Below are positions 6,186 through 44,840 of a DNA stretch of 64,000 nt, one piece after another. Within the stretch, counting starts at the first letter, position 1; every line of letters begins with the position of its first letter. The notes beneath the pieces were generated by a model. That model saw only the letters and a program-made list of their open reading frames with translations, did not search any database and was not told where the DNA came from. Position numbers and translations under genes: made by a program. The DNA comes from Frigoribacterium sp. PvP032 (GTDB taxonomy: Bacteria > Actinomycetota > Actinomycetes > Actinomycetales > Microbacteriaceae), in assembly GCF_017833035.1 (NCBI RefSeq), contig NZ_JAFIBM010000001.1, forward strand, positions 1,054,001 to 1,118,000. The letters are read 5' to 3'.

Positions 6186-6271
6186 GTCGAGGACTCAGGT
6201 GCTGATGTCGGGGGCGGCGCTCCGTCCTCGGCGAACGGGGCGGCGCCTCCTTCGTTCCCTGAATCGTCGAC
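6186..6271. repeat. 86-bp paired-motif element 1
   Basis: The left arm GTCGAGGACTCAGG and right arm CCTGAATCGTCGAC bound a 58-bp GC-rich centre. It lies between agpS and cysK, both on the plus strand. It is one of 14 copies in the window. Confidence 0.85.
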
Positions 6272-6381
6272 GCGTCGACCGCCCGCCCGCTGCCGGACGT
6301 CATCTGCGGCACGGTCGCAGGCCCGCTGCCTAGACTCAGGTCTGTTCGTACGTACCGACCCACCTCACGGAAGAGACGCGC

Positions 6382-7320
6382 ATGACCGGCATCCACGACG
6401 ACATCACCTCCGCCTTCGGCGACACGCCCCTCGTGCGCCTCAACCGGCTGGCGGTGCCCGGCGGCGCCGAGGTCGTCGTGAAGCTCGAGTTCTACAACCC
6501 GGGCGCCAGCGTGAAGGACCGGCTGGGCGTCGCCATCGTCGACGCTGCCGAGGCCTCAGGTCAGCTGCAGCCCGGCGGCACGATCGTCGAGGGGTCGAGC
6601 GGCAACACCGGCATCGCGCTCGCGCTCGTGGGCGCCGCCCGCGGCTACCGCGTCGTCATCACGATGCCCGAGACGATGAGCGTCGAGCGCCGCACCTTGA
6701 TCAAGGCGTACGGCGCCGAGGTCGTGCTCACCCCCGGCGGCGAGGGGATGCGCGGCGCCGTCGAGCGCGCGAAGCAGATCGTGGACGAGACCGAGGGCGC
6801 CGTCTGGGCCCAGCAGTTCGAGACGCTGGCGAACGCCGAGATCCACCGCCGCACGACGGCGCGCGAGATCATCCGCGACACGGACGGCGCCGTCGACTTC
6901 TTCGTCGCGGGCGTCGGCACCGGCGGCACCATCACGGGCGTCGGCCAGGTGCTGCACGACGAGGTCCCCGGGGTTAAGGTCGTTGCTGTCGAACCCGCCG
7001 ACTCGCCCCTGCTCAGCGAGGGCAAGGCCGGGCCGCACAAGATCCAGGGCATCGGCGCCAACTTCGTGCCGGAGGTGCTCGACCGCTCACAGATCGACGA
7101 GGTGTTCCCCGTGCAGCTCGACGACGCCCTGCGCGTCGCGCGGGACCTCGGCACGAAGGAGGGCATCCTCTCCGGCATCTCGTCGGGGGCCATCGTGCAC
7201 GCCGCCCTCGAGATCGCCGCCCGCCCCGAGAACGCGGGCAAGCGCATCGTCGCCATCGTCTGCGACACGGGGGAGCGCTACCTCTCGACCGTCCTGTTCC
7301 AGGACCTCGCGGACGCCTAG
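6382..7320 (+). CDS. cysK: Cysteine synthase A (O-acetylserine sulfhydrylase)
   Basis: A 312-aa fold-type II PLP enzyme that makes cysteine from O-acetylserine and sulfide. The PLP lysine is K45 in NPGASVKDR. The substrate loop GSSGNTGIAL and the glycine-rich GVGTGGTITG are present. Length is normal. GGAAGAG lies just upstream of the ATG, and a possible -10 (TAGACT) is at 6331-6336. Serine acetyltransferase follows immediately, so the two cysteine-forming steps are one operon. Confidence 0.97.
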   Translation: MTGIHDDITSAFGDTPLVRLNRLAVPGGAEVVVKLEFYNPGASVKDRLGVAIVDAAEASGQLQPGGTIVEGSSGNTGIALALVGAARGYRVVITMPETMSVERRTLIKAYGAEVVLTPGGEGMRGAVERAKQIVDETEGAVWAQQFETLANAEIHRRTTAREIIRDTDGAVDFFVAGVGTGGTITGVGQVLHDEVPGVKVVAVEPADSPLLSEGKAGPHKIQGIGANFVPEVLDRSQIDEVFPVQLDDALRVARDLGTKEGILSGISSGAIVHAALEIAARPENAGKRIVAIVCDTGERYLSTVLFQDLADA

Positions 7321-7321
7321 C

Positions 7322-7873
7322 GTGCGGCTGGTCGCGCGGCTGCGCGAGGACCTCGCCACCGTGCAGCGACGCGACCCCGCCGCCCGCGGACGACTCGAGA
7401 CCGCCCTGGTGTACTCGGGGCTGCACGCGGTGTGGGCGCACCGCCTCACCAGCAGACTGTGGCGTGCGGAAGGGGTGCCGCGCCTCCTCGGCTCGCGGTT
7501 CGTCGCCCGGGTGCTCTCGCAGGTCGCCCGGACCGCGACGGGCGTCGAGATCCACCCGGGGGCCGTGCTCGGGCGGCGGTTGTTCATCGACCACGGGATG
7601 GGGACGGTCGTCGGCGAGACGGCGGTCGTCGGGGACGACTGCACGCTGTTCCACGGCGTCACGCTCGGGGGCAAGGGCGGCCGCGGCGTCGCCGGACGTC
7701 GACACCCGACGCTCGAGCGCGGCGTCACGGTCGGCGCGGGCGCGGCGGTGCTCGGCGGGGTCGTGGTCGGGGCGGACAGCATCGTCGGCGCGGGGGCGGT
7801 CGTCACGCACGACGTGCCGCCCGGGTCGGTCGCGGTGGGCGTGCCCGCCGTGGCGCGGCCGCGGCACCGCTAG
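7322..7873 (+). CDS. cysE: Serine O-acetyltransferase
   Basis: A 183-aa left-handed beta-helix acetyltransferase, the short form of CysE. The hexapeptide repeats run from about residue 70 to the C-terminus. It contains HPGAVLG, DHGMGTVVGE and HGVTLGG, the last matching the catalytic/serine-binding region. The GTG lies one base after the cysK stop, so translation is coupled. It makes the O-acetylserine used by CysK. Confidence 0.95.
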   Translation: MRLVARLREDLATVQRRDPAARGRLETALVYSGLHAVWAHRLTSRLWRAEGVPRLLGSRFVARVLSQVARTATGVEIHPGAVLGRRLFIDHGMGTVVGETAVVGDDCTLFHGVTLGGKGGRGVAGRRHPTLERGVTVGAGAAVLGGVVVGADSIVGAGAVVTHDVPPGSVAVGVPAVARPRHR

Positions 7874-7892
7874 CGCCGCCGCGAGCTGCCGA

Positions 7893-8246
7893 CTACGCGA
7901 GCGGGCGTCGTGACTTCGGCATGCCCGCGATCACCCGGTCGTACGAGTTGCCCACGAGGTCCTCGACCATGGTGGCGGGGAGGTCGCCCGACAGGTCGAT
8001 CGTGATCCAGTGCCGCTTGTTCAGGTGCCAGCCCGGCGTGATCTCGCGGTGCTCGGCGCGCAGCTGCTCGGCGTGCTCGGGAACGGCCTTGAGCGAGACG
8101 GACGGCGTCTCGGCGTCGACGGGCACCAGGGCGAAGATCTTGCCGCGCACCTTGTACACGGCGATCTCGAGCCCGAACGGGAACGTCAGCTCGGCAGAGG
8201 GCTGCTCGGCGCAGAGCGCCTGCACCTGTTCGGTCGTCATGGCCAT
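7893..8246 (-). CDS. MmcQ/YjbR family protein
   Basis: A 117-aa alpha/beta protein of the YjbR (CyaY-like fold) family. The sequence ends WITIDLSGDLPATMVEDLVGNSYDRVIAGMP, with the typical KRHW and SYDRV blocks (shown here in part). The family's function is not established; DNA binding has been proposed. The ATG at 8246 is preferred to 8240 because the -10-like GATCCT ends 6 bases before it. It faces cysE, 19 bases from its stop. Confidence 0.85.
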   Translation of the reverse strand: MAMTTEQVQALCAEQPSAELTFPFGLEIAVYKVRGKIFALVPVDAETPSVSLKAVPEHAEQLRAEHREITPGWHLNKRHWITIDLSGDLPATMVEDLVGNSYDRVIAGMPKSRRPLA

Positions 8247-8338
8247 GCCACCAGGATCGCAGGTCGTCGCAGGCCGCAGACCGGATGCGGGATGCCGGAG
8301 GTCGCAGGGAGCAGGGCCCGGGGCGGCAGGCGCGGCCG

Positions 8339-9481
8339 TCAGGCGTTGGTGAGCTCGCGGTCCGCGGGTGTCGTGCTCCGCGCCCCCTTGGCGGGGCTGC
8401 CGAGGCGGTCCTTGAGGCGGAGTGCCGGGCCCTCGACGAAGCGGTGCGAGAGGTACGCCGTCACGATCGACGCGGCGATCACGGCGGCGATGCCGAGCGC
8501 ACCGGGGACGACCGGTGTGATGAGCGCGATGAAGACGACGTGCCAGAGGTAGATCGGGTACGAGAGAGCCCGGCCGAACCAGGCCACGGGACCGAGCGAC
8601 AGCACGCGGGCGGGCAGCGACGCCCGCGAGACCAGGCCGCCGATCAGGAGTGCCGACGCGACGGCGACGCCCGGCAGCATGACCGTGAAGGTCGTGACGC
8701 TCTGCTGCCAGCCGCTGCCGATCGCCGCGAGCGAGCCGACGACCCCGACGAGGCCGACCCACGTGGCCGCCGTGCCTAGACGGCCGCGGAAGATCGCCTG
8801 CCCCTTATCGGAGCCCATGACGAGTGCCAGCCCGCAGCCGAGCAGCAGGGGCGCCACGTTCAGCACCGGGCTGAAGTAGATGTCGGGGGTGGACCCGCCT
8901 CCGGGCGCCTCGAACAGGAAGCCCGAGGCGACGACGGAGGCCACGACGAGCGCGCCGAGCACGGCCACCATGACCCGGCGCGTGGCGACGACCGCGATGA
9001 GGAGCATGAGGAGGGGCGGCCAGACGATGTAGAACTGCTCCTCCATCGAGAGGCTCCACATCGGCGAGAAGACGCCCTGGGACTCGCCGAAGAACGAGCG
9101 CGCGACGTTGCCCGTGTAGGTGAGGGCGACGGCCGCAGCGCCGAGGGCGCTCATGGTCGAGCCCTGGTAGTCGCCGATCAGCCACCAGAGGGCGACGCCC
9201 ACGACGACCACGGCGAGCAGGGTCGGGTAAAGGCGCAGGATGCGGCGCACCCAGAAGCGGCCCAGGCGGATGCGGCCGGTCCGCGCGTGCTCGCCCAGGA
9301 GCAGCGTCGTGATGAGGTAGCCGGAGAGCACGAAGAAGACGTTGACCCCGACGAATCCGCTGCCGAACCCGGGCACGTGCAGGTGGTAGAGCACCACGAA
9401 GGCGATGGCGATCGTGCGCAGGCCGTCGAGCGGCAGCACGCGGTCGCGGCGCGTCGAAGTCGTCGGAGGGGCTAGGGGCAT
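8339..9481 (-). CDS. OafA/YrhL-type membrane acyltransferase
   Basis: A 380-aa integral membrane acyltransferase (acyltransferase-3 family) with about ten membrane segments. It opens with LDGLRTIAIAFVVLYHLHVPG and has GVNVFFVLSGYLIT and FSPMWSLSMEEQFYIVWP, the family signatures. These proteins O-acetylate cell-surface sugars or lipids; the acceptor here is unknown. CACACT ends 6 bases before the ATG, so the mRNA is probably leaderless. It stands alone, 265 bp downstream of an efflux pump gene on the same strand. Confidence 0.92.
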   Translation of the reverse strand: MPLAPPTTSTRRDRVLPLDGLRTIAIAFVVLYHLHVPGFGSGFVGVNVFFVLSGYLITTLLLGEHARTGRIRLGRFWVRRILRLYPTLLAVVVVGVALWWLIGDYQGSTMSALGAAAVALTYTGNVARSFFGESQGVFSPMWSLSMEEQFYIVWPPLLMLLIAVVATRRVMVAVLGALVVASVVASGFLFEAPGGGSTPDIYFSPVLNVAPLLLGCGLALVMGSDKGQAIFRGRLGTAATWVGLVGVVGSLAAIGSGWQQSVTTFTVMLPGVAVASALLIGGLVSRASLPARVLSLGPVAWFGRALSYPIYLWHVVFIALITPVVPGALGIAAVIAASIVTAYLSHRFVEGPALRLKDRLGSPAKGARSTTPADRELTNA

Positions 9482-9597
9482 CGGACCAGTGTGCCTGGCG
9501 GACCTTCGATCTGCCCGGGTGCGGTCGCGTGGTCGGTCGCGGGTGCGTCGAGGGGACAGCGTCGGCGGCCTCCCCGGCCGTGTTCGTGGGTGGCCGC

Positions 9598-9683
9598 GTC
9601 GAGGACTCAGGTTACGGCGGCTGGCCCGGCCGGGGCGCCTCGCGAGATGACGACGGGGCGTCGACGACTCCTGAGTCGTCGAC
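9598..9683. repeat. 86-bp paired-motif element 2
   Basis: The left arm is GTCGAGGACTCAGG and the right arm CCTGAGTCGTCGAC, with 58 bp between. It lies downstream of the MFS gene. Its right arm is part of a separate 15-bp hairpin. Confidence 0.85.
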
Positions 9684-9688
9684 GCCCC
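9655..9688 (-). terminator. Hairpin after the MFS gene
   Basis: GGGGCGTCGACGACT pairs perfectly with AGTCGTCGACGCCCC around a CCTG loop, 59 bases downstream of the MFS stop. The right half coincides with the right arm of repeat element 2. Confidence 0.65.
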
Positions 9689-9746
9689 GAACGGTGCGTG
9701 GTGCGTGGTGCCGCGGTGCGGGGTGCGGGGTGCGCGGTGCGCGGCG

Positions 9747-11276
9747 TCAGGCCGAGGGGGCCTCGGCGCGCGTGCCCGAGTCGGCACCAGCCCCGGCGGG
9801 GCGGCCGTGGCCGACACGCCGCGGCAGCGCGAACACCAGCGCGAAGGCGACGAGCGCGAACGCCGCGCTGACGCCCATGGCCGCGGCCGAGGCGTCGGTG
9901 AAGCCCGTGGCACGGCCGGCCGCCGTCGCCAGCTCGCGACCGGCCGGCAGCGACCCGAACAGGACGCTGCCGATGATCGCGATGCCCACGGCCGAGCCGA
10001 TGCGCTGGATCGCCGAGATGACGGCGCTGGCCGAGCCGGCGTCCTGAGGGTCGACCGTCGCGACGATGAACTGGACGTTCGGGGCGATGAAGAAGCCGTT
10101 GCCGAGACCGGCGACGAGCAGCGGGACCAGCAGGATCCAGTTCGTGAGGTCGGCGGGCTCGACGACCAGCAGGATGATCCACATCGCCCCGAGCCCGACC
10201 GTGACGAGTGCCGTGCCCAGCACGAGCACGTTGCGCCCGAGCTTCTGAGCGAGCTGGTTGCTCTGCGACGACGAGATGATGCTGCCGACCGCGAAGGGGA
10301 TGGCGACGGCGCCGGAGGCGAGCGCGCTGTTGCCGAGACCCGATTGCCAGAGCAGCGAGATCGTGAAGAAGATGCTGGTGAAGGCCGCGAAGTAGACCAG
10401 CGCCAGGACGACGCCGCCCGTGAACTGCGGGTGGGAGAAGAGCTTGGGGGGCACGAGGGGGGTGCGTCCACGCCGGGTGTACGCCACCTCCCATAGGCCG
10501 AAGAGCGCGAGCAGCACGAGGCCGCCGGCGATGCTCAGGTAGGTCCAGAGAGGCCACCCCTCGTCCTGGCCCTGGATCAGCGGGACGAGCAGCGCGACGA
10601 ACGCGGCCGAGACGAGCAGGAGGCCGAACCAGTCGAGTCCGCGGTCGGGGCGCGGCACGGACTCGTCGCGACGAGGCAGCAGCACGGCCGCCGCGACCAG
10701 CGTGATGATGCCGAAGGGCAGGTTCACGAAGAACACGAGACGCCAGCCGTGCTCGTCGCCGAACGCCTGGATGAGCAGTCCGCCGATGATGGGCCCGAGG
10801 GCGGACGAGACGCCGATGACGGCGCCCATGATCGCGAACGCCTTGCCGCGGGCCCGCCCGGGGAACAGCAGCTGGATGAACGCGGTCACGGCCGGCACGA
10901 AGATGCCGCCCGCGAGGCCCTGCACGACGCGGAACACGACGAGCTGGTGGTCGCTCGTCGCCACGCCGCAGGCGAGGCTGGCGAGGGTGAAGAGCAGCAC
11001 GCCCGAGAAGTAGACCCACTTGTGCCCGATGCGGTCGCCGATGCGGCCGGCGGGGATGAGCGTCAGGCCGAAGGCGAGCGCGTAGCCCGAGATGATCCAC
11101 GAGAGTGTCGACTCCGAGGCGTCGAGGTTCGTCCGGATGGTCGGCAGCGCGACGTTGACGATCGTCGTGTCGAGCAGCGCGATGAACATGCCGAGCAGCA
11201 GCGCCGACAGGGCGAGCCACGACTGGCGGGGGATGGCGGGCGCCGGGGCGGCTGCCCGGGCGGTGGCGTCGGTCAT
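9747..11276 (-). CDS. MFS multidrug exporter, DHA2 family
   Basis: A 509-aa transporter with about 14 predicted membrane segments. It has motif A-like GRIGDRIGHKWVYFSG and the motif C region GVSSALGPIIGGLL, typical of EmrB/QacA proton-drug antiporters. GAAAGG lies about 9 bases before the ATG. It is 77 bp downstream of a PadR regulator on the same strand, the usual arrangement of a drug-responsive efflux operon. The substrate cannot be read from sequence. Confidence 0.92.
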   Translation of the reverse strand: MTDATARAAAPAPAIPRQSWLALSALLLGMFIALLDTTIVNVALPTIRTNLDASESTLSWIISGYALAFGLTLIPAGRIGDRIGHKWVYFSGVLLFTLASLACGVATSDHQLVVFRVVQGLAGGIFVPAVTAFIQLLFPGRARGKAFAIMGAVIGVSSALGPIIGGLLIQAFGDEHGWRLVFFVNLPFGIITLVAAAVLLPRRDESVPRPDRGLDWFGLLLVSAAFVALLVPLIQGQDEGWPLWTYLSIAGGLVLLALFGLWEVAYTRRGRTPLVPPKLFSHPQFTGGVVLALVYFAAFTSIFFTISLLWQSGLGNSALASGAVAIPFAVGSIISSSQSNQLAQKLGRNVLVLGTALVTVGLGAMWIILLVVEPADLTNWILLVPLLVAGLGNGFFIAPNVQFIVATVDPQDAGSASAVISAIQRIGSAVGIAIIGSVLFGSLPAGRELATAAGRATGFTDASAAAMGVSAAFALVAFALVFALPRRVGHGRPAGAGADSGTRAEAPSA

Positions 11277-11353
11277 GGGGGTGCCTTTCGTGGGGCAGGG
11301 TCGGGTGCCCGGCGGGTGGCCGGAAGGGAAGAGCGGAGTCGAGGAGGCGGTCG

Positions 11354-11944
11354 CTACCGACCGGAGGAGCCGGGAGTCAGCGCGTGCCTGGCCCCCGCCT
11401 CCTCGTCGGCGACGATCTCGGGGAGCGCGTCGATCAGCGTGTCGTGCCAGGCGAGCTCGGCGCGGAGCCGGTGCTCTCGGTGCGCCATCGCGTGCTTCTC
11501 GGCGACGGAGAGCCAGGGGCTCGCGCGACGGTGGTGCTCGATCTCGTCGTCGAGGAGGCGGCTGACCGCTCCTCGGCGTTCGTGGACGGTGCCGACGAGG
11601 TCGTCGATGGCGTCGGGGTCGACACGGGTCAGCGCGAGGTCGAAGGGATCGGGTCGCAGCACGACGGTCTCGAGGGCGTGCCGGCGTGAGTCGGCGAGGG
11701 CCGTGCGGCCGTCGTCGGTGATCGCCCAGACCTGACGCTCGGGGAAGTTGCCCTCGCGCTCGGTGCGGACGGGGGCGAGCAGGCCCTCGGCGGCGAGGCG
11801 CTTGAGGGCGCCGTAGAGACCGCCCACGGAGATGTCGGTCCACTGGTGGACGTGCTCCTGCTCAGCCTGGAGCTTCAGCTGGTGTCCGTGCATCTCGCCG
11901 TGGCGCGCGAACGAGTCGAGCACGAAGAGGCGGATGGAGGACAC
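11354..11944 (-). CDS. PadR family transcriptional regulator
   Basis: A 196-aa regulator. The N-terminal winged helix (SIRLFVLDSFARHGEMHGHQ, then GGLYGALKRLAAEGLL) is the PadR hallmark and is followed by a helical C-terminal dimerisation domain. The start is GTG; GAGAGT ends 6 bases before it and TTGACT lies 17 bp further up, making a full leaderless promoter. A dyad overlaps that -10, so autorepression is likely. It most probably represses the efflux gene next to it until a ligand binds. Confidence 0.93.
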   Translation of the reverse strand: MSSIRLFVLDSFARHGEMHGHQLKLQAEQEHVHQWTDISVGGLYGALKRLAAEGLLAPVRTEREGNFPERQVWAITDDGRTALADSRRHALETVVLRPDPFDLALTRVDPDAIDDLVGTVHERRGAVSRLLDDEIEHHRRASPWLSVAEKHAMAHREHRLRAELAWHDTLIDALPEIVADEEAGARHALTPGSSGR

Positions 11945-11949
11945 CGAGG

Positions 11950-11965
11950 TACTCTCGCACGAGTA
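11950..11965. promoter_or_regulatory. Dyad overlapping the padR -10 (putative PadR operator)
   Basis: TACTC-TCGCAC-GAGTA is an inverted repeat that covers the GAGAGT -10. The -35 TTGACT (11974-11979 on the minus strand) is 17 bp upstream of the -10. A regulator bound here would block polymerase. Confidence 0.6.
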
Positions 11966-12076
11966 GTCGTCCGAGTCAAATATCGTGCAGTGAGCGCAAG
12001 TGGACCGCCTTGGAGACGCGTCGGTCGGCCGGGCAGGTGGTGCACCCGTCCTCCGACGCCGAGATGCTTCTCCGCG

Positions 12077-12161
12077 GTCGAGGACTCAGGGGCGCGAGGC
12101 GGCGAGCTCCGCTACGCCGCGCATGACGGGGGCCAGCGGCGACGCCTCCTGATCGCTCAAC
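12077..12161. repeat. 85-bp paired-motif element 3, overlapping a gene end
   Basis: The left arm GTCGAGGACTCAGG (12077-12090) contains the TGA stop of the MOSC gene. The right arm CCTGATCGCTCAAC (12148-12161) has one mismatch to the TCGAC end and lies inside the coding region. The element therefore encodes the last 25 or so residues of that protein. Confidence 0.7.
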
Positions 12162-12721: not shown

Positions 12722-12850
12722 GGGCCCATCGTGCCCGAGAGCACGGGCCTCGACAAGGCGGACGGGGACCAGCACGCGGTCGAGAGACGGCACGACGACG
12801 GCGCGCCCCGAGGCTGTGAGCGTGTCAGCGTTCGGGCGTGCCAGCGCTCG

Positions 12851-13897: not shown

Positions 13898-14607
13898 CGC
13901 GCCTCCCCGGCCTCGAGGGCCAACCCGACGACACGGCGTGCGCGTTCCTCGAGGGCGCTCGGGGCGCCTCCTGCGAACGCGTCGCGCAGGAGCGGACTGC
14001 CGAGGCTGACGGCGAGCGAGCCCTCGCGGATCCACGCCGGGACGTCGTCGAGCTCGATGCCGCCTGACGGCACGACCTCCATGTCGGGGAACGGGCCGCG
14101 CAGCTGGCCCACGTAGCCGGGACCGACCGTCGAGGCGGGGAAGAGCTTGACCGCCGTGGCGCCCGACGCCCAGCTCGACCAGAGCTCGGTGGGTGTGAGG
14201 CCGCCGGGGTAGAAGGGCACCCGACGGCTCGTGACTGCGTCGGCGATGGCCGTCGACGTGATCGGCGTGACGACGTAGGCGGCTCCCCGGTCGACGCCCG
14301 CGAGGGCCTGGTCGACCGTGGTGACGGTCCCTAGGCCGATCTCGGCGGCGTCGGCGAATCGAGCGACCAACTCGGGCAGCACGGCGAGGACGCCTGGCGT
14401 TGTGAGCGTCAGCTCGACGCTGCGGATGCCTCCGCGGACGAGCGCCTCGATCACGGGTTCGAGCTCGGCAGCGCTCGGCGCCCGGAGCACAGCGACGACG
14501 CGCGACTCCCGGAGGGCAGATGAGGCGGGTGTCCGGGCCTCGAGGCAGGCCCCGGCCGCGAGCGCGGTCTCGGGAGGGGAAGCTGCGGACGTGCTGCTGG
14601 CGGTCAT
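13894..14607 (-). CDS. eda: 2-keto-3-deoxy-6-phosphogluconate aldolase
   Basis: A 237-aa class I aldolase (KDPG/KHG family) with the Schiff-base lysine in VKLFPAS, the phosphate loop PSGGIELDD and GLGTVTT. A 30-residue non-conserved N-terminal extension precedes the barrel. GAAGGG is present upstream. It is the first gene of the eda-kdgK pair. Its ATG also overlaps the stop of a DUF559 gene, which may be accidental read-through. Confidence 0.92.
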   Translation of the reverse strand: MTASSTSAASPPETALAAGACLEARTPASSALRESRVVAVLRAPSAAELEPVIEALVRGGIRSVELTLTTPGVLAVLPELVARFADAAEIGLGTVTTVDQALAGVDRGAAYVVTPITSTAIADAVTSRRVPFYPGGLTPTELWSSWASGATAVKLFPASTVGPGYVGQLRGPFPDMEVVPSGGIELDDVPAWIREGSLAVSLGSPLLRDAFAGGAPSALEERARRVVGLALEAGEAR

Positions 14608-15743
14608 CGTGAGCCCTTCGCGACGGTGCGGTGGTCATGACCAGTATGACCGGAGGCGGTCCTGCGCCTGGACCGGCTCGGCGGACGCGGCGTCGCTGCC
14701 AGCACGTGCTGGTGTGGCCAGCTGTGCCCCACCTCGTCGGGTCGGCGCATCGGGAGCCGCCAACGGCGACCGGGCCGCGAGCGTCCGTACGCAGATCGGC
14801 GCTCGGCCGAGCCCGCGGGTGCTCGGGTGCGGCTCCGGGCCCCACCCGCGGAGCCGCCGTCGCGTTCCCGGATGCGCGCAGGCTGCACCGGCCCCGCCGC
14901 GGTCCCGTCACGGTGCATCAAGACCGCCGCCTCGATCGCGGCCGAGACCGTGTCCCAGTGCTCCGTGATCAGCTCGTAGCTCAGGTGGACGGGGATTCGT
15001 CGGCGGATGAACGTCTCCATGTCCTTGCTGACGTCCGCGTCGAAGCGGTCGGCGTGCCACTTCCGTCCGTCGGTCTCGACGCCGAGAACACCGTTGACGA
15101 CCAGGTCCGTGTGTCGGCCGAAGCCGACGGGCACCTGCGACGTGACGTGGAAACCCGCCCTTCGGAGCCTGGTCCGCACGACGCTCTCGAGGATGCTCTC
15201 GCTGTCGGCGTCGACCCAGTCGGCGACGCCTCGGGCGTCCGCGGGCAGACGGGCGACGACCCCCGCGAACTCGTCAGCCGAGATGCGCCCCTGGTGAAGG
15301 GCCCAGTCGCAGAGCGCGACGGCGATCTCGAAGTCCTCGTCGAGGACCGCCCTGACGAGAGCGTCGACGACGGAGACGACGGCCACGCCGCCCCGCTCGC
15401 GGACAGCGACCGGATCCCACACGACCCGTGCGCGTCGACACTGGCGGAGTCTCGCGGCGTGGGGCGGGACGGAGACGCAGACCGTTCGAGGCCGCGCCCA
15501 CATCCAGCCGCCGAGGTGGAACAGGGCGGACGAACCCGTGAGCCGCCCGCCGACCCGGACGGCCGTGACGCGGTCGTCGTCGAGGGGCAGGTTGCTGTAC
15601 CAGCCGAGCCGCGGACGGTGCAGGTCGCCTGAGCGCACCGCACGGGTGAGGTCGCGATCGTCGGCGCCGGCTCGGCGGAGCTGCCGTCGGGTGGCGAATC
15701 CTCCTGCGTCGGTGACGAGGTCGATGAGGTCGGCGGTGTGCAT
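14604..15743 (-). CDS. DUF559 / AbiEi-like protein with odd C-terminal extension
   Basis: A 379-aa frame. The N-terminal part is a helix-turn-helix like that of AbiEi-type proteins (LIDLVTDAGGFATRRQLRRA). The part near residues 180-275 resembles DUF559, an endonuclease-like Vsr/PD-(D/E)XK relative (VETDGRKWHADRF, FIRRRIPVHL). The normal family end would be near residue 275. The last 100 residues are Arg/Pro/Ser-rich and look like translated non-coding DNA, ending only in the ATGA overlap with eda. GACAGT 6 bases before the ATG supports a leaderless start. Some family members are type IV antitoxins, but no toxin gene is adjacent. Confidence 0.7.
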   Translation of the reverse strand: MHTADLIDLVTDAGGFATRRQLRRAGADDRDLTRAVRSGDLHRPRLGWYSNLPLDDDRVTAVRVGGRLTGSSALFHLGGWMWARPRTVCVSVPPHAARLRQCRRARVVWDPVAVRERGGVAVVSVVDALVRAVLDEDFEIAVALCDWALHQGRISADEFAGVVARLPADARGVADWVDADSESILESVVRTRLRRAGFHVTSQVPVGFGRHTDLVVNGVLGVETDGRKWHADRFDADVSKDMETFIRRRIPVHLSYELITEHWDTVSAAIEAAVLMHRDGTAAGPVQPARIRERDGGSAGGARSRTRAPAGSAERRSAYGRSRPGRRWRLPMRRPDEVGHSWPHQHVLAATPRPPSRSRRRTASGHTGHDHRTVAKGSR

Positions 15744-15876: not shown

Positions 15877-15961
15877 GTCGACGGTTCAGGTGGGGACGTC
15901 CGCACCCGGCAGCCCCGGCGCACGGCACCCGGCGGCAACCGTCGTCTCCTGATCCGTCGAC
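15877..15961. repeat. 85-bp paired-motif element 4
   Basis: The left arm is GTCGACGGTTCAGG and the right arm CCTGATCCGTCGAC. It lies in the 352-bp gap between divergently starting genes, upstream of the promoter of the decayed sugar transporter. Confidence 0.8.
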
Positions 15962-17368: not shown

Positions 17369-17454
17369 GTCGAGGACTCAGGCACCCGGGGCGGCCGGCA
17401 CCGCGCGGCCGGTCCGCCGGCCGGGGCGCGGTCGTCGTCGCCTGAGTCCTCGAC
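17369..17454. repeat. 86-bp paired-motif element 5
   Basis: The arms are the exact pair GTCGAGGACTCAGG and CCTGAGTCCTCGAC. It lies between the decayed permease and the hydroxyacid dehydrogenase. Confidence 0.9.
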
Positions 17455-18530: not shown

Positions 18531-18616
18531 GTCGAGGACTCAGGAGGCGCCCGCGTCGAGACCCTCAGCGCGCGGGGCTGACGGGCGCTGAGCGTCCCGC
18601 CGCCTGAGTCCTCGAC
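18531..18616. repeat. 86-bp paired-motif element 6
   Basis: The arms are the exact pair GTCGAGGACTCAGG and CCTGAGTCCTCGAC, 58 bp apart. It separates two tandem plus-strand genes and lies 14 bases upstream of the next -10. Confidence 0.9.
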
Positions 18617-21425: not shown

Positions 21426-21511
21426 GTCGAGGACTCAGGCGTGCGCGTCGCGCGCGTCCCCGTCGGCAGGCTGCTGGCACGATGGCGACATGTCCGACCT
21501 GAGTCCTCGAC
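21426..21511. repeat. 86-bp paired-motif element 7, containing a promoter and start codon
   Basis: The exact arms GTCGAGGACTCAGG and CCTGAGTCCTCGAC enclose the CACGAT -10 (21478-21483) and ATG (21490) of the amidotransferase. The right arm encodes the residues LSPRR of that protein. Confidence 0.9.
21478..21483 (+). promoter_or_regulatory. -10 hexamer of the amidotransferase gene
   Basis: CACGAT ends 6 bases before the ATG at 21490, which fits a leaderless transcript. The same hexamer and spacing precede the genes at 48464 and 59060 and, on the minus strand, at 12721. Confidence 0.55.
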
Positions 21512-24161: not shown

Positions 24162-24246
24162 GTCGAGGACTCAGGCGCCCGGCAGCAGCGACGTCGCTCA
24201 CCCGCGGCAGGGCGGCGCCTGCAGCGTCGCCACCTGAGTGCTCGAC
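24162..24246. repeat. 85-bp paired-motif element 8
   Basis: The left arm is GTCGAGGACTCAGG and the right arm CCTGAGTGCTCGAC. It lies between two convergent genes. Confidence 0.85.
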
Positions 24247-27277: not shown

Positions 27278-27363
27278 GTCGACGACTCAGGAGGCGCCGG
27301 TCACGAGGACGGGGCGACGCATATCCAGCAGGCGCCCCCGCCGATCACACCTGAGACCTCGAC
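27278..27363. repeat. 86-bp paired-motif element 9, overlapping the ATPase gene end
   Basis: The left arm is GTCGACGACTCAGG and the right arm CCTGAGACCTCGAC (27350-27363). The right arm encodes part of the ABC ATPase C-terminus and the stop TGA (27345-27347) lies just inside it. Confidence 0.85.
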
Positions 27364-30436: not shown

Positions 30437-30522
30437 GTCGACGGATCAGGTGCTGTCGTCGACGCCGGGCCGCGCTGTCCTGCCGCCTGTCGCCCGACGC
30501 CGCCGCCACCTGAATCGTCGAC
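30437..30522. repeat. 86-bp paired-motif element 10
   Basis: The left arm is GTCGACGGATCAGG and the right arm CCTGAATCGTCGAC. It lies in the 325-bp gap between divergent genes, 35 bp upstream of the LacI-type operator. Apart from these two signals I see nothing else in the gap. Confidence 0.85.
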
Positions 30523-34970: not shown

Positions 34971-34983
34971 GTCCCCCCTCCCC

Positions 34984-35029: not shown

Positions 35030-35067
35030 ACAGCTCCGCCCCACCCCATGCACGAAAGAAGGAACAC

Positions 35068-36604
<1,537 letters not shown>

Positions 36605-36618
<14 letters not shown>

Positions 36619-37873: not shown

Positions 37874-37947
37874 CAGGGAGCGAGCGAGCTGGCAGCAGCA
37901 ACGGCAGCAGCAGCTCAGCTCGACGAGACTCGTCGGCCGGTCGGTCG

Positions 37948-38033
37948 GTCGACGATCCAGGAGGCGCGGTCCGAGGGGGGCCGCGCCTCCGTCGTCCCGG
38001 GGCGTCGCCGACGCTCGTGCCTGAGTCCTCGAC
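37948..38033. repeat. 86-bp paired-motif element 11
   Basis: The left arm is GTCGACGATCCAGG and the right arm CCTGAGTCCTCGAC. The centre contains a hairpin (AGGAGGCGCGG with CCGCGCCTCC) that could terminate the transporter operon. It lies between gguB and the lacI-type gene. Confidence 0.85.
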
Positions 38034-38090
38034 GAGGCCCGGAGCCGGCCGGCGAGCCAGCCGGCCCGGGATCGGAAACCGAACGACCTT

Positions 38091-38096
38091 TAGGAT
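38091..38096 (+). promoter_or_regulatory. -10 hexamer of the LacI-family regulator gene
   Basis: TAGGAT ends 6 bases before the GTG at 38103, so the regulator mRNA is probably leaderless. No GTGAGCGCTCAC site is near, so it is not obviously autoregulated. Confidence 0.6.
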
Positions 38097-38102
38097 CAGA
38101 CA

Positions 38103-39092
38103 GTGGCAACCCTCTTCGACGTCGCGGCCGAGGCCGGCGTCTCGCACCAGACGGTGTCGCGCGTCGTCAACGGCGACCCCACCGTGCGCCCGGTGACGAA
38201 GGCCAAGGTCGACGCGGCCGTCGAGAAGCTGAGCTACCGCCCGAGCCTGACCGCGCGGGCCCTCGCCAGCCGCAAGACCCGGTCGATCGGGCTGATCAGC
38301 ACCGGGTTCCCCTTCTACGGGCCGTCGAGCACGATGCACGGCTTCAACGGTGCTGCGCGCCGAGCCGGCTACCAGGTGTCGATGGCCACCCTCGACGGCG
38401 ACGACACCCGCGCCGTCCAGCAGGCCGTCGACGCGTTCGTCGGCCAGGCCGTCGCGGCCATCGTGCTCATCGCGCCCGACGCGCAGGCCCTGGACGTGCT
38501 GCGCTCGTCCCGGGTGGCGGTGCCGCTGGTCACCGCCGACAGCGTCGCCGAGGACGGCCACCACGCCGTCTCGATCGACCAGGCAGCGGGTGCCGAGCTC
38601 GCCGTCGAGCACCTCGCCTCCCTGGGGCACCGATCCGTCGCCCACGTGGCCGGGCCCGAGGCGTGGATGGACGGTCGTGATCGCGAGCGGGGCTGGCGCG
38701 ACGCCTGCGAGCGGCTCGGCCTCGAGACGGGGCCGCTGCTGCGGGGCGACTGGACCCCCGCCTCCGGGCACCGCCTCGGCCTCGAGCTGGCCGGACGGCG
38801 CGACGTCACGGCGGTCTTCTGCGCGAACGACCAGATGGCGCTCGGCGCGGTGCACGCGTTCTGCGACGCCGGCCTCGAGGTGCCCCGGGACGTGAGCATC
38901 GTCGGCTTCGACGACGTGCCGGAGGCGGCGCACTTCCTGCCTCCGCTGACGACCGTGCGCCAGGACTTCGAGGCGCTCGGCCGCCGCATCATGGACACGG
39001 TCGAGGCAGTGCTCGCCGGGGACGACGAGCCCGTCGACGCGGTGCTGCCCGAGCTCGTCGTGCGGCGCTCGACGGCGGCGCCCCGGTCCTGA
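38103..39092 (+). CDS. LacI family regulator of the arabinose genes
   Basis: A 329-aa repressor. The N-terminal helix-turn-helix and hinge (TLFDVAAEAGVSHQTVSRVVNG, then YRPSLTARALASRKT) precede a periplasmic-binding-like ligand domain with VFCANDQMALGA and VSIVGFDDVPEA. It lies between the transporter and araBDA operons. Each of these, and the alditol oxidase operon, carries the palindrome GTGAGCGCTCAC, the kind of site LacI proteins bind. It is therefore the likely local repressor, with arabinose or a phosphorylated product as inducer. Confidence 0.92.
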   Translation: MATLFDVAAEAGVSHQTVSRVVNGDPTVRPVTKAKVDAAVEKLSYRPSLTARALASRKTRSIGLISTGFPFYGPSSTMHGFNGAARRAGYQVSMATLDGDDTRAVQQAVDAFVGQAVAAIVLIAPDAQALDVLRSSRVAVPLVTADSVAEDGHHAVSIDQAAGAELAVEHLASLGHRSVAHVAGPEAWMDGRDRERGWRDACERLGLETGPLLRGDWTPASGHRLGLELAGRRDVTAVFCANDQMALGAVHAFCDAGLEVPRDVSIVGFDDVPEAAHFLPPLTTVRQDFEALGRRIMDTVEAVLAGDDEPVDAVLPELVVRRSTAAPRS

Positions 39093-39174
39093 GCCGGGGC
39101 TGACCTGATCCTCCACCGGCCGTCTGCCGGCTCTGCGCCGGCCTCGTCGCGCTGCTCTCCCGGCACCGGCCGCG

Positions 39175-39204
39175 TTGCACGCACCACCCGCGGCGTGTGA
39201 GAAT
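39175..39204 (+). promoter_or_regulatory. Promoter of araBDA
   Basis: TTGCAC, an 18-bp spacer and GAGAAT, with TG one base upstream of the -10 (extended -10). The LacI-type operator begins directly after the -10. Confidence 0.65.
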
Positions 39205-39216
39205 GTGAGCGCTCAC
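39205..39216. promoter_or_regulatory. LacI-type operator of araBDA
   Basis: The perfect palindrome GTGAGCGCTCAC abuts the -10 box, about 65 bases before the araB ATG. Confidence 0.88.
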
Positions 39217-39281
39217 TTTCGCGTGGGCAGACCACCAGACCCGCCCCTCCGGGGCTCGCACCACCAGGACAAGGACGTTCC

Positions 39282-41060
39282 ATGGCAGACACCACCGCCG
39301 CGCCCGACGCACACGTCGTCGGCGTCGACTTCGGCACCCTGAGCGGGCGGGCGGTCGTCGTCCGCGTGTCCGACGGGGCCGAGCTCGGCACCGCCACCCA
39401 CGACTACTCGCACGCCGTCGTCGACCGCACGCTGCCCGTCGGCGGGGCGCGACTGCCGGCCGACTGGGCCCTGCAGGTGCCCAGCGACTACGTCGACGTG
39501 CTGAAGAACGCCGTGCCGGAGGCCCTGGCCGCGTCCGGCGTCGACCCGGCCTCGGTGATCGGCATCGGCACCGACTTCACCGCCTGCACGATGGTTCCGA
39601 CGACCGCCGACGGCACCCCCCTCAACGAGCTCGAGCAGTTCGCCGACCGCCCCCACGCCTACGTCAAGCTGTGGCGTCACCACGCCGCGCAGGGCCAGGC
39701 CGACCGCATCAACGAGCTGGCTCGCGAGCGCGGCGAGACCTGGCTGCCCCGCTACGGCGGGCTCATCTCGAGCGAGTGGGAGTTCGCGAAGGGGCTGCAG
39801 CTGCTCGAGGAGGACCCCGAGGTCTACGCGGCCACCGAGCACTGGGTCGAGGCCGCCGACTGGATCGTCTGGCAGCTCAGCGGGCGCTACGTCCGCAACG
39901 CCTGCACGGCCGGCTACAAGGGCATCCTGCAGGACGGCGAGTACCCGAGCAGCGACTTCCTCGCCGCGCTCAACCCCGACTTCGCCGACTTCGCCGAGAC
40001 GAAGGTCGTGCACGAGATCGGCGCGCTCGGCGACGCCGCCGGCACGCTGACAGCGGAGGCGGCCGGCTGGACCGGCCTGCCCGAGGGCATCGCCGTCGCG
40101 GTCGGCAACGTCGACGCGCACGTCACTGCCCCGGCCGCCAAGGCCACGCAGCCCGGCCAGATGGTCGCGATCATGGGCACGAGCACCTGCCACGTCATGA
40201 ACGGCGCCGAGCTGGCCGAGGTCCCCGGCATGTGCGGCGTCGTCGACGGCGGCATCACCGAGGGCTTCTACGGCTACGAGGCCGGCCAGTCGGGCGTCGG
40301 CGACATCTTCGCCTGGTACGTCCGCAACCAGGTGCCGCAGTCGGCGGTCGACGCGGCGGAGGCTGCCGGCAAGAGCGTCCACCAGCACCTGACCGACCTC
40401 GCCTACGAGCAGCCGGTCGGCGCCCACGGCCTCGTCGCGCTCGACTGGCACAGCGGCAACCGCTCGGTGCTCGTCGACCACGAGCTGAGCGGCGTGATCG
40501 TCGGGCAGACGCTCGGCACGGCCCCCGAGGACGGCTACCGAGCGCTGCTCGAGGCCACGGCCTTCGGCACGCGACGCATCGTCGAGGCCTTCAACGACTC
40601 CGGCGTCCCCGTCACCGAGTTCATCGCCGCCGGCGGCCTGCTCAAGAACCGACACCTGATGCAGACCTACAGCGACGTGCTGCGCATGCCGATCTCGACG
40701 ATCCGCAGCGAGCAGGGCCCGGCCCTCGGCTCCGCGATCCACGCCGCCGTCGCCGCAGGTGCCTACCCGGACACCCGCGTGGCCAGCGACGCGATGGGCA
40801 GCCTGGACCGCGCCTCCTACACGCCGGACCCGGCCGCCGCCGACGCGTACGACGCCCTCTACGCCGAGTACCTGCTGCTGCACGACTGGTTCGGCCGCGG
40901 CGGCAACGACGTGATGCACCGCCTCAAGGCGATCAGCAGGGAGGCGCGGGGCGGCTCGCACGCACCGGTCGCCGAGCCCGAGGCGCCCGCCGCCTCCGGC
41001 GGCTCGTCTGCTGCCGACGCGGCTGCCGCCTCCGGCGTCGCCTCGGAGGTGACCGCGTGA
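39282..41060 (+). CDS. araB: Ribulokinase
   Basis: A 592-aa FGGY-family kinase. [16 protein letters not shown] near the N-terminus is the ribulokinase form of the phosphate loop, [14 protein letters not shown] is typical of AraB, and the second domain has [11 protein letters not shown] and [15 protein letters not shown]. It phosphorylates L-ribulose to L-ribulose 5-phosphate. The last 35 residues are an Ala/Ser-rich tail not found in the core family. It is first in the araB-araD-araA operon; its stop overlaps the araD start. Confidence 0.96.
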
Positions 41061-41767
41061 GCTTCATCGACCGCGCCACCGAGACCGCCATCGACGAGAC
41101 GCGCCGCGCCGTCTGCGACCTGCACGCCGAGCTGACCCGCTACGGCCTCGTGGTCTGGACCGGCGGCAACGTCTCGCAGCGCGTGCCCGGTACGAACCTG
41201 TTCGTGATCAAGCCGAGCGGCGTCGACTACGACGACCTGACGCCCGAGAACCAGATCTTGTGCCACCTCGACGGCAGCGTCGTCGAGGGCAGCCCCGGCA
41301 GCGAGCGCAGCCCGTCGAGCGACACTGCAGCGCACGCCTACGTCTACCGCCACATGCCGAAGGTCGGGGGAGTCGTGCACACGCACTCCACCTACGCGAC
41401 AGCCTGGGCGGCCCGCGGCGAGTCGATCCCCTGCGTCATCACGGCGATGGCCGACGAGTTCGGCGGCGAGATCCCGATCGGCCCGTTCGCCATCATCGGC
41501 GACGAGTCGATCGGCGAGGGCATCGTCGGCACCCTCGAGGGCCACCGCAGCCGTGCCGTGCTGATGCAGAACCACGGCGTCTTCACGATCGGCAAGGACG
41601 CCCGCGACGCCGTCAAGGCCGCCGTCATGACGGAGGACGTCGCGCGCACGATCCACCTCAGCCGCCAGCTCGGCGAGCCCCTCCCCATCCCGCAGGAGAG
41701 CATCGACGCTCTCTTCGACCGCTACCAGAACGTCTACGGCCAGAAGCCCTCAGGAGCACTCGCATGA
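41057..41767 (+). CDS. araD: L-ribulose-5-phosphate 4-epimerase
   Basis: A 236-aa class II aldolase-fold epimerase. It has the phosphate-binding GNVSQR, the zinc ligands in [13 protein letters not shown], and a third His in [10 protein letters not shown]. It converts L-ribulose 5-phosphate to D-xylulose 5-phosphate, which enters the pentose phosphate pathway. The GTG overlaps the araB stop (GTGA) and its own stop overlaps the araA start (ATGA). Confidence 0.96.
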
Positions 41768-43323
41768 GCAACGACACCACCAGCACCTCCTCTGCCCCCT
41801 CGCACCTCGTCGACCCCCAGGCGTTCCTCGCGTCGAAGCAGGTCTGGTTCCTCACCGGCAGCCAGGGCCTCTACGGCGAGGAGACCCTGCGTCAGGTCGC
41901 CGAGCAGTCGAAGGCGATCGCCGACGAGCTGGCCGAAGCCTCGGGCGTGCCCGTCGAGCTGGTCTGGAAGCCCGTGCTCACCGACGCCGAGACGATCAAG
42001 CGCACGATGCTCGAGGCCAACCTCGACGACTCCGTCATCGGCGTCACCGCCTGGATGCACACGTTCAGCCCGGCCAAGATGTGGATCGGCGGCATCGACG
42101 CCCTCCGCAAGCCGCTGCTGCACCTGCACACGCAGGCGAACGTCGAGCTGCCCTGGGCCGAGATCGACTTCGACTTCATGAACCTGAACCAGGCCGCGCA
42201 CGGCGACCGCGAGTTCGGCTACGTCCAGACGCGCCTCGGCGCCCCGCGCAAGACCGTCGTCGGACACGTCAGCGACCCTCGCGTGCAGCAGCAGGTCGGC
42301 ACCTGGATGCGTGCCGCTGCCGGCGCCGCCGCCATGCGCTCGCTGAAGCTCGCCCGCTTCGGTGACAACATGCGCTTCGTCGCCGTCACCGAGGGCGACA
42401 AGACCGAGGCCGAGCTCGCGTTCGGCGTGCAGGTCAACACGTGGGGCGTCAACGAGCTGGCGGAGGCGGTGGCCGCGGCCCCCGAGACCGCGGTCGACGA
42501 CCTCGTCGCCCTGTACGAGCGCGACTACGACGTCGTCCCCGAGCTGCGCGCCGGGGGCGAGCGCCACCAGTCGCTGCGCGACGGCGCCGCGATCGAGATC
42601 GGCCTGCGCTCGTTCCTCGAGGCGGGCGGCTTCGGCGCCTTCACCACCAACTTCGAGGACCTGGGCGCGCTGAAGCAGCTCCCGGGGCTCGCAGTGCAGC
42701 GCCTGATGGCCGAGGGCTACGGCTTCGGAGCCGAGGGCGACTGGAAGACCGCGGTGCTGGTGCGCGCCGCCGCCGTGATGGGCGCAGGCCTGCCGGGAGG
42801 CGCCTCCTTGATGGAGGACTACACCTACCACCTCGTGCCCGGCGCCGAGAAGATCCTCGGCGCCCACATGCTCGAGGTCAGCCCGTCGCTGAGCTCGGCC
42901 CGCGCCTCCCTCGAGGTGCACGAGCTCGGCATCGGCGGCAAGGACGACCCGGTGCGCCTGGTCTTCACGGCCGACCCCGGCGAGGCAGTCGTCGTCGCGA
43001 TGAGCGACGTGCGCGACCGGTTCCGCCTCACGGTCAACGTCGTCGACGTGGTCGAGCCGGACGCCGACCTGCCGAACCTGCCCGTCGGCCGTGCCGTGTG
43101 GGAGCCCCGCCCCTCGTTCGCCGTCTCGGCCGAGGCGTGGCTCACGGCAGGTGCCGCCCACCACACCGTGATGTCGACCTCTGTGGGCCTCGAGGCCTTC
43201 GAGGACCTCGCGCGCATCCTCGAGACCGAGCTGCTGATCATCGACGAGCACACGACGATGCGCGAGTTCACGCGCGAGGTGCGCTGGAACGCGGCCTACC
43301 ACCGCCTGGCGCGCGGCCTGTAG
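41764..43323 (+). CDS. araA: L-arabinose isomerase
   Basis: A 519-aa isomerase. [16 protein letters not shown] opens the protein; [32 protein letters not shown], and the metal-binding TNFEDLG and [15 protein letters not shown] are all present. It interconverts L-arabinose and L-ribulose. Length is normal. It is the last gene of the operon and is followed by a hairpin. Confidence 0.97.
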
Positions 43324-43341
43324 CAGCCAGCAGAGCCAGCC

Positions 43342-43388
43342 GAGGAGGCGGTCCGTGCGGTCCCGAGGGACGGCGGGGCCGCCTCCTC
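43342..43388 (+). terminator. Terminator of araBDA
   Basis: GAGGAGGCGG pairs with CCGCCTCCTC around a GC-rich loop that can extend the stem, 19 bases after the araA stop. Confidence 0.7.
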
Positions 43389-43492
43389 CGTCGTCCCGAC
43401 GAGGCGCGCGATGTCGGTCCACCCGCTCTCGGCGATCCGGGGCCTGGCGTAGCTCCGGGAACACCACCCGCGCCTCCGTGGTTGCAGTCCCC

Positions 43493-44500
43493 ATGACCGT
43501 TCCCCTCTCGATCCTGGACCTCGCCCCCATCGCACCCGGAGAGACGGCGCGCGACAGCTTCGCGGCGTCGGTCGCCCTCGCGCAGCAGGCCGAGAAGAGC
43601 GGGTACCGACGCGTCTGGTACGCCGAGCACCACAACATGGCGACGATCGCGTCGAGCGCCACGTCGGTGCTGATCGCCCACGTGGCGAGCCAGACGTCCA
43701 CCATCCGGCTCGGCTCGGGCGGCGTGATGCTGCCGAACCACTCGCCGCTGACGATCGCCGAGCAGTTCGGCACCCTCGAGACCCTGCACCCGGGGCGCAT
43801 CGACCTGGGTCTCGGCCGTGCCCCCGGCAGCGACCAGGCGACGTTCCGCGCCCTGCGGCGTGACCCGGCTTCGTCGGAGCGGTTCCCGCAGGACGTCGTC
43901 GAGCTGCAGGCGTTCCTCGCCGGCCAGTCGCGCATCCCCGGCGTCAGCGCGACACCCGGTGCCGGCACGAACGTGCCCCTGTACATCCTCGGCTCGTCCA
44001 CCTTCGGCGCCCAGCTCGCCGCGGCCCTCGGCCTGCCCTTCGCCTTCGCGTCGCACTTCGCCCCCGACATGCTGCACGACGCCGTCGCGATCTACCGCCG
44101 CGAGTTCCAGCCGTCCACCCAGCTCGACGCCCCGTACGTGATCGCCGGGGTCAACGCCATCGCGTCGGACGACTCCGACGAGGCGCACCAGCAGCTGGCG
44201 GACGTCAAGCGGGCCCGCCTGCTGATGCTGCTGCGCCAGAGCGGCCAGATCACGGTCGACCGCACCTTCGGCGACGACGAGCTCGACCACCTGCTCCGCA
44301 CCCCGGTCGGAGCGCACGTCGCGAGCATGACGACCTTCACCGGCGTCGGCACCGGCGAGGAGGTGGCCGACTACGTCGCCGAGTTCGCCCGCAGTGCCGA
44401 CGCGGACGAGGTCATCGTCGCGCACTCGTCGCTCGCCACGTCGGCCCGACTCCGCTCGGTCGAGCTGCTCGCCGACGCGCACGCCCGCGTCGCCGCCTAG
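43493..44500 (+). CDS. LLM class flavin-dependent oxidoreductase (YhbW-like)
   Basis: A 335-aa luciferase-like protein. [19 protein letters not shown] and [20 protein letters not shown] match the MsnO8/YhbW subgroup, with [23 protein letters not shown]. It probably uses FMN or F420; the substrate is unknown. No good Shine-Dalgarno is seen before the ATG. It is separated from araA by a terminator, so it is not part of that operon. Confidence 0.88.
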
Positions 44501-44536
44501 CCAGAGGGCTCGGGCCTGGCCCGTTCTCGCGGGGGT

Positions 44537-44622
44537 GTCGAGCATTCAGGAGACCACGTCGTGCGCGACCTCGGCGGCGGTGATCGCGCACGCAGCGCGT
44601 GGCCACCACCTGGATGGTCGAC
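44537..44622. repeat. 86-bp paired-motif element 12 (array copy 1)
   Basis: The left arm is GTCGAGCATTCAGG and the right arm CCTGGATGGTCGAC. First of three tandem copies at a 109-bp period between convergent genes. Confidence 0.85.
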
Positions 44623-44645
44623 GCGGCTCGGGCCGTCCCCGTCGT

Positions 44646-44731
44646 GTCGAGGTCTCAGGAGACGACGTCGTCGACCCCTCGGCCGACGGTCTCAGAGTGC
44701 CGGTCACGACGACGTGACCTGAGTCCTCGAC
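44646..44731. repeat. 86-bp paired-motif element 13 (array copy 2)
   Basis: The left arm is GTCGAGGTCTCAGG and the right arm CCTGAGTCCTCGAC. The inner flanks (GAGACGACGTCG and CGACGACGTGA) are shared with copy 3, so the array probably arose by duplication. Confidence 0.88.
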
Positions 44732-44754
44732 GCGGCCGGCTGCCGTCGGCCTGC

Positions 44755-44840
44755 GTCGAGCTCTCAGGAGACGACGTCACGAACGCTCCGGCCGGTGGTC
44801 GCGGGGACGGGGTCGCGACGACGCCACCTGGATCCTCGAC
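44755..44840. repeat. 86-bp paired-motif element 14 (array copy 3)
   Basis: The left arm is GTCGAGCTCTCAGG and the right arm CCTGGATCCTCGAC. The array, plus a hairpin at 44928, is all I can find in the 478-bp gap 44501-44978. Confidence 0.85.

Follow-up and report, generated by a model that had tools for sequence, protein, structure and literature searches.

In the parABS and MatP/matS systems, many copies of one site lie in a single chromosomal region and are served by a cognate DNA-binding protein. Paired sites are described in other settings. In the accessible text of the source, AbiEi binds two 23-bp inverted repeats placed 3 bp apart in its own promoter, and the repeat pairs of Rv2827c from Mycobacterium tuberculosis are 13 bp apart, an extra 10 bp that, as the authors suggest, may accommodate a larger C-terminal part (PMC7319586). 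REPINs, as far as the available excerpts go, are inverted doublets whose separation is fixed (71 bp for GI) and whose spacer is less conserved (PMC3116915), and the RAYT gene is flanked by them (PMC3116915, PMC3733652). Excerpts of two further papers name the MTES_1575 REase as a Vsr-type domain (PMC3710099) and describe Vsr as acting on T:G mismatches within methylated motifs (PMC12907096). Here we describe a family of paired-arm elements in a 64,000-nucleotide window, the whole stretch that was analyzed, at positions 1,054,001–1,118,000 of the Frigoribacterium sp. PvP032 genome (G000; 3,327,708 bp, one contig). The elements cluster around a gene for a 379-residue protein that joins an AbiEi-type winged helix to a Vsr/DUF559-like nuclease domain (window positions 14604–15743, minus strand, assigned from profile matches), which we propose as their cognate protein. 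This gene, which the cluster surrounds, is a new finding; an earlier, sequence-only reading of the window had not named it as a candidate. Titles and abstract openings of the open-licence literature on AbiEi, REPIN/RAYT, MTES_1575, Vsr/DUF559, Microbacteriaceae and Frigoribacterium repeats describe no such elements, and give no site or role for an AbiEi-plus-nuclease protein.

The sequence-only reading had listed fourteen elements, eleven of 86 bp and three of 85 bp, and all fourteen were found where it had placed them and with these lengths. The window has 29 exact matches to the arm GTCGASSNHYCAGG, where 0.27 would be expected, and 27 of them fall in the fourteen elements; the other two (47457 and 55415) are lone arms, which are also dispersed over the rest of the G000 genome. 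The consensus claimed for the arms fits both sides of 13 elements and fails only for the right arm of the one at 12077 (CCTGATCGCTCAAC). The search of the whole genome that the reading had proposed returned 15 strict copies, all confined to 52 kb (1,046,489–1,098,840) and two of them just left of the window. Relaxing the arms raised the count to 18, the extra elements lying at 888,568, 988,661 and 1,129,469. The 44.9–64 kb part of the window, which had been called empty, is so, and the last of these extra elements lies 11 kb past the window's end. The cluster is centered on the AbiEi/nuclease gene, with 16 of 19 G000 elements at most 30 kb from it. The reversed-pattern control gave zero matches in the genomes scanned with the strict, relaxed and CTCCTG patterns.

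The distance between the arms is held closely. In the fetched blocks of 13 genomes, which were selected around clusters and their counterparts and do not give genome-wide counts, arms fitting GTCGANNNNYCAGG without mismatch form 90 pairs at 55–60 bp, 77 of them at exactly 58 bp, against nine over the rest of the 20–110 bp range, in agreement with the fixed spacing of the sequence-only reading. Eight of these nine are elements of G007 at 47–48 bp, and the ninth is a G012 pair at 61 bp. Related genomes thus mostly keep 58 bp, as had been expected, except that G007 keeps 47–49 bp, about one helical turn less: across 180 kb it has 12 elements, with spans of 47 bp in eight, 48 bp in three and 49 bp in one, and none at 57–59 bp. 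At the start of the same Peptidase_C26 gene, the left-to-right arm distance is 58 bp in G000 and 48 bp in G007. A third span, about one helical turn more than elsewhere, occurs in G160 (L292), where CTCAGG cores lie 69 bp apart 195 bp before the homolog's start and 68 bp apart 916 bp after it; elsewhere in that genome the span is 58 bp in the five places listed, in a search limited to 56–60 bp. Spans of about 48, 58 and 68.5 bp are compatible with a bridging protein whose two sites face the same side of the helix.

Comparison of orthologous elements demonstrates conserved arms, a centre that drifts as its flanks do, and a length held to about 1 bp. Among 33 orthologous pairs (G000 against G001, G011 and G012), letters at the 18 fixed positions of the arms are identical in 593 of 594 comparisons, a figure that is conditional on an element being present, since orthologous places were located by their flanks and the best-fitting position with at most four arm mismatches was taken. 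The 33 were kept from 39 comparisons; those dropped were three involving the array members at genome positions 1098646 and 1098755, and three gaps that fitted at six, seven and eight mismatches. In the same pairs, the variable arm letters agree at 73–82%, the inner 12 bp at 70–74%, the centre at 66–68% and the 40-bp flanks at 65–69%. A logo of 170 half-sites from G000, G001, G011 and G012 revealed a weaker inner extension of the arm, approximately nGnCGnCGtCG at positions 15–25, which makes the half-site about 26 bp long and the free centre about 34 bp. The claim that the sequence between the arms is not shared therefore stands for these 34 bp and not for the inner extension. Pairing between the arms is not preserved, as the earlier reading had argued: variable positions pair at 0.531 against 0.532 in shuffled arms (n = 90 Frigoribacterium elements), and left and right arms are without covariation (z by genome 1.23, 1.14, −1.44 and −2.15). 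The centres fold barely better than shuffled sequence (mean z −0.54; 13 of 90 below −2), and an Rfam scan gave no match at the gathering threshold.

The protein at the middle of the cluster matches PF13338 (AbiEi_4, an N-terminal winged helix) with 25.8 bits at a cut-off of 25, and nine of ten family members match it at E up to 1. The PADLOC AbiEi profile covers residues 4–166, with weaker PDC-S37 matches in four of the ten. Beyond the winged helix, MTES_1575 is matched by all ten members at E up to 1 (best 1.5e-7), the window protein itself scoring 23.2 bits, below the 38.2 cut-off, and DUF559 by two. Residues E186, D213, E223, D225, H230 and K240, all of nuclease type, are invariant in the ten aligned members, and the 379-residue protein may be a PD-(D/E)XK nuclease and active as one. 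The NCBIfam anti-phage ProA profile gave a weak match in three of ten (best E 0.011). A search of solved structures returned no relevant match for the protein, and an AlphaFold model from five sequences was too poor (pLDDT 44). Of the 40 open reading frames of the window scanned with Pfam, neighbours included, none matches an AbiEii (DUF1814) toxin; two ABC transporters do hit AAA_21, a profile with AbiEii in its title, but both score better with ABC_tran.

Element and gene occur together across genomes. The strict pattern is present in 5 of 60 genomes, G000 included, all of one genus. With the looser core ACTCAGGN{56,60}CCTGAGT, 49 of the family's 398 genomes are positive, from 25 of 85 genera, and in many of them several copies cluster and the inner letters are species-specific; the reversed looser pattern gave one match each in seven genomes, so that single matches may be chance. 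By tblastn on the fetched blocks, a homolog is present in the congeners G001, G004, G007, G011 and G012, and, at 37–47% identity, in four of eight element-bearing blocks from three other genera (G173, G419, G280 and G350). Profile A1 found one to seven members in each of 30 Microbacteriaceae genomes, which were chosen and not sampled. Elements directly adjoin several of these homologs, at 231,993 and 233,060 for G256 (C322:232,180–233,103), at 458,775 and 459,882 for G085 (C1:458,975–459,967), at 434,673 and 435,810 for G087 (C3:434,863–435,942), and at 3,146,668 for G186 (C1:3,146,858). A CTCAGG-type pair at 40–65 bp lies within the 4-kb locus of 18 of the 30 best homologs. Under a single rule (12 of 14 letters inverted, spacing of 47, 48 or 57–60 bp, position −320 to −90), 22 of the 30 loci have an upstream pair, starting 188–263 bp upstream, compared with 34 of 600 random windows that were not cleared of elements. 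Tandem arrays of four to eight elements, spaced every 125–255 bp and with centres that look alike by eye, occur in G012 (C1:1034678–1035890, 1050101–1050581 and 1191818–1192622), G004 (C1:535349–535970) and G002 (C1:793005–793781).

Homologs in genomes lacking CTCAGG elements have upstream pairs of the same geometry with a different core, CTCCTG (GTCGGCAACTCCTG...CAGGAGTTGCCGAC). Fourteen of the genus's 16 genomes contain the pattern CAACTCCTN{57,63}AGGAGTT, the reversed control has zero matches, and a CTCCTG-type pair lies at most 200 bp from a homolog in 12 of the 13 genomes with listed places, the exception being G014 at about 9.5 kb. Both systems coexist in G000 with separate arms: a perfect pair lies 241 bp upstream of the second paralog, at 1,829,516, and more copies occur at about 7.2, 7.3 and 25.7 kb. 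In a tree of 29 proteins, the CTCAGG and CTCCTG cores are split by a single change with support 100/100, so arm type follows protein clade; G008 was left out of this tree, the core labels of G350, G014, G009 and G160 were set by us, and all nine CTCCTG rows come from one genus.

Other families of the order also have homologs, in 12 of the 23 genomes searched. Of seven stretches from these families, six have an upstream inverted pair of at least 12/14 letters, the letters being unlike those of both CTCAGG and CTCCTG types. In five of the six (G059, two of G041, G045 and G054), the pair recurs 787–874 bp from the gene start with at most 5/28 mismatches, and among control pairs from the same stretches 9 of 84 recur anywhere in the block and 2 of 84 within 1.3 kb. 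A separate bracket score (maximum 56) gave 49 for G059, 50 for G054 and 45 for G041 against a control median of 37. Because such gene-bracketing pairs are found in other families, the basic arrangement may be a gene with one paired site on either side, of which the archipelago of the window would be an expansion.

We consider it fairly probable that the elements are the cognate DNA sites of the 14604–15743 protein, with two protomers bridging the arms and the upstream element acting as its operator, a prediction made from sequence. The sites differ among species together with the gene, and are thus probably its binding sites. One protomer would take each arm of about 26 bp, and the two would meet across the centre; this contact would hold the arm distance to about 1 bp, allow it to change by whole helical turns, and leave the letters of the centre free. 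The pairing, length and span results support the view of the sequence-only reading that a protein bridges two sites at fixed spacing, as opposed to an RNA stem or terminator. The element at 15877–15961 (85 bp), whose near edge is 133 bp from the start codon of the nuclease gene on its upstream side, would be an operator mediating autoregulation as in AbiEi. The other elements may be satellite sites that keep a potentially harmful nuclease in its own neighbourhood. The purpose of these satellites is the least certain part of the explanation; sequestration of the nuclease is the one we rate highest, above regional folding and self-targeting.

Several results weigh against this explanation. Four of the eight other-genus blocks (G186, G396 and two of G067, each a single 20-kb stretch) have elements and no homolog, and the G002 array at C1:793,005–793,781 has no homolog recorded nearby in the profile search. 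Elements are dispersed genome-wide in G087, G156 and G111. The window and spacings of the upstream-pair rule were fixed only after upstream elements had been seen, and 8 of the 30 loci still fail it (G011, G007, G004, G350, G014, G005, G008 and G009): the first three of these have looser elements, G005 and G009 have pairs of the CTCCTG core, G014 and G008 have only degenerate pairs recognized by eye, and G350 has none. The G007 protein is without an indel in its first ~290 residues to account for the shorter span, and the mixture in G160, 68–69 bp at the gene and 58 bp elsewhere, means that the span is not uniform in every genome. Eight of 240 bracket-score controls reached at least 46, those listed being pairs of Microbacteriaceae loci, and the score found matching downstream pairs in only three Microbacteriaceae loci (G085, G256 and G156). 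Finally, titration alone would not account for such conservation of each arm.

The window elements sit among ordinary metabolic genes, as judged from Pfam matches. The fourteen fall in 12 gaps, eight tandem, two divergent and two convergent, which bears out the claim that all gap types are occupied; these orientations rest on our choice of open reading frames and on Pfam matches, some neighbours being without a match. No strand is assigned to any element. Those at 6186–6271, 9598–9683, 17369–17454, 18531–18616 and 27278–27363 are 86 bp long, and the one at 24162–24246 is 85 bp. The element with the imperfect right arm (12077–12161, 85 bp) overlaps the end of a MOSC-domain gene. The element at 21426–21511 (86 bp) spans the upstream region and start codon (21490) of the Peptidase_C26 gene, its right arm lying inside the first codons, and occupies the same place in G001, G011, G012 and G007. 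The element at 30437–30522 (86 bp) is missing in G011 along with a larger irregular stretch. Three 86-bp elements, at 44537–44622, 44646–44731 and 44755–44840, form a tandem array. The element at 37948–38033 (86 bp) has a GC-rich hairpin in its centre, GGAGGCGCGG...CCGCGCCTCC, with counterparts in G001, G011, G012 and G004; since the hairpin is kept in these relatives, a terminator may be nested inside the element. A separate motif, GGCGTGTCG / CGACACGCC, recurs in the centres of elements in G087 and G156 and of some CTCCTG elements in G003, G005 and G013, and may be either an independent motif of intergenic DNA or a further set of letters that take part in binding. An apparent low-GC island left of the cluster was rejected as an artefact, as the stretch (L025:2000–4800) reads as N.

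The elements could instead be mobile miniature elements, the nuclease spreading paired arms by local hopping as RAYT transposases may do with REPINs and the cluster reflecting local jumps. The sites do adjoin the gene, at both its ends in G085, G256, G156 and several genes of other families, the window cluster is centered on it, tandem arrays exist, and REPINs, in the accessible text of PMC3116915, are likewise doublets in inverted orientation whose distance is fixed and whose spacer is less conserved. We nonetheless regard mobility as unlikely. When occupied and empty orthologous gaps were compared, as the sequence-only reading had suggested, five gaps could be aligned and four of them are without an element in one species; the two that are clear on both sides have larger irregular losses, with no clean 86-bp insertion and no target duplication. 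The centres at orthologous places have diverged as far as the flanks, so the sites are old, and the arms have no hairpin covariation. Another short repeat, CTCAGGAGGCGGCGGTCGC..TCCTGA followed by GTGCACGACTCAGGA, lies next to an element that G001 has and G000 lacks (G000:C1 at about 922,300 and G001:C6 at about 36,300). Integron-like cassettes were also considered and are improbable, because relatives that lack elements of this type have several of these genes in an unchanged order.

Comparably improbable, in our estimate, is a domain-organizing or centromere-like role in which a protein bridges many sites to fold or mark the region, as in parS/ParB or matS/MatP. In its favour, the 15 strict elements of the 3.33-Mb chromosome all fall within 52 kb, among ordinary metabolic genes, and 16 of 19 elements are 30 kb or less from the gene. 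Exact parS sites (GTTTCACGTGAAAC), however, are found as a group of four at 223–225 kb, with dnaA at 219 kb and none at the cluster with up to two mismatches; this places the cluster about half way along the replichore, where it is also not an origin or terminus marker. The conserved nuclease-type residues speak against such a role as well, as do the dispersed elements of G087, G156 and G111 and the absence of the strict 57–59 bp pattern from 10 of the 15 other genomes of the genus, none of these ten being known as a short-span genome.

There is a smaller chance still that the sites serve self-targeting defence, a triggered nuclease cutting the chromosome at its own sites in an abortive response. 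The PADLOC AbiEi matches, the weaker PDC-S37 (4/10) and weak ProA (3/10) matches and the conserved nuclease-type letters point in this direction, and a nuclease that dimerizes in the middle would be well served by two inverted binding arms whose centre is free in sequence and constant in length. Against it, no trigger, partner or defence gene was recognized among the 40 window open reading frames scanned, no homolog was confirmed in viral contigs, and the retention of sites that are cut would be left unexplained. A viral origin of the elements was rejected, as the looser pattern ACTCAGGN{56,60}CCTGAGT gave one site per contig among the viral matches listed and 0 of 49 candidate stretches encode a homolog. 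RNA structures such as terminators or attenuators are scarcely credible: the arms are inverted, some centres carry hairpins (37948) and 13 of 90 fold at z below −2, but pairing does not covary, every gap orientation is occupied, Rfam gives no match at its gathering threshold and one element covers a start codon.

Taken more broadly, the favoured reading of the elements as cognate sites can be extended to a proposal that we hold tentatively and consider doubtful as a whole: that a winged-helix nuclease marks its own neighbourhood with paired sites of set span, that every paralog uses an arm code of its own with a span measured in helical turns, that the sites are needed to check or direct the nuclease, and that sites and protein co-evolve. 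This would be a new class of two-part system in Microbacteriaceae and probably in other Micrococcales. Through the elements, the AbiEi-plus-nuclease family gains a DNA target that is concrete and can be predicted. Natural experiments are provided by a genome with two paralog systems, by arm codes that vary by genus and by spans one helical turn apart, and through them nuclease recognition, spacing and control become directly testable.

Among known systems, the Vsr/DUF559 and MTES_1575 nucleases share with the window family a Pfam match, below cut-off in the window protein, and conserved acidic residues; the link to T:G mismatches in methylated motifs is, in the excerpted account, a feature of Vsr and none was seen here. 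Like parABS and MatP/matS, the locus combines many sites of one type in one region with a predicted cognate DNA-binding protein, and it differs in its bipartite site of set span, its nuclease-type domain and its mid-replichore place. The likeness to REPIN-RAYT, judged from the accessible descriptions, lies in inverted doublets at a set distance, a less conserved spacer and a gene flanked by them. Here, in contrast, the arms lack hairpin covariation, the sites hold their positions from one species to another, the associated protein matches no transposase (it is not Y1), and the elements are clustered round the gene in the window genome. Compared with the AbiEi operators of S. agalactiae AbiEi and Rv2827c, as far as they are described in the available text, the inner edges are about 34 bp apart as opposed to 3 or 13 bp, no AbiEii toxin gene is present among the 40 reading frames scanned, and a predicted nuclease domain and many further sites around the gene are added. 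What is shared is the winged helix, inverted half-sites of similar length (about 26 bp here and 23 bp there), paired inverted repeats in the gene's own upstream region (15877–15961 here; 22 of 30 homologs), and a gap that varies by steps of about 10 bp, the difference between the two studied AbiEi-type members.

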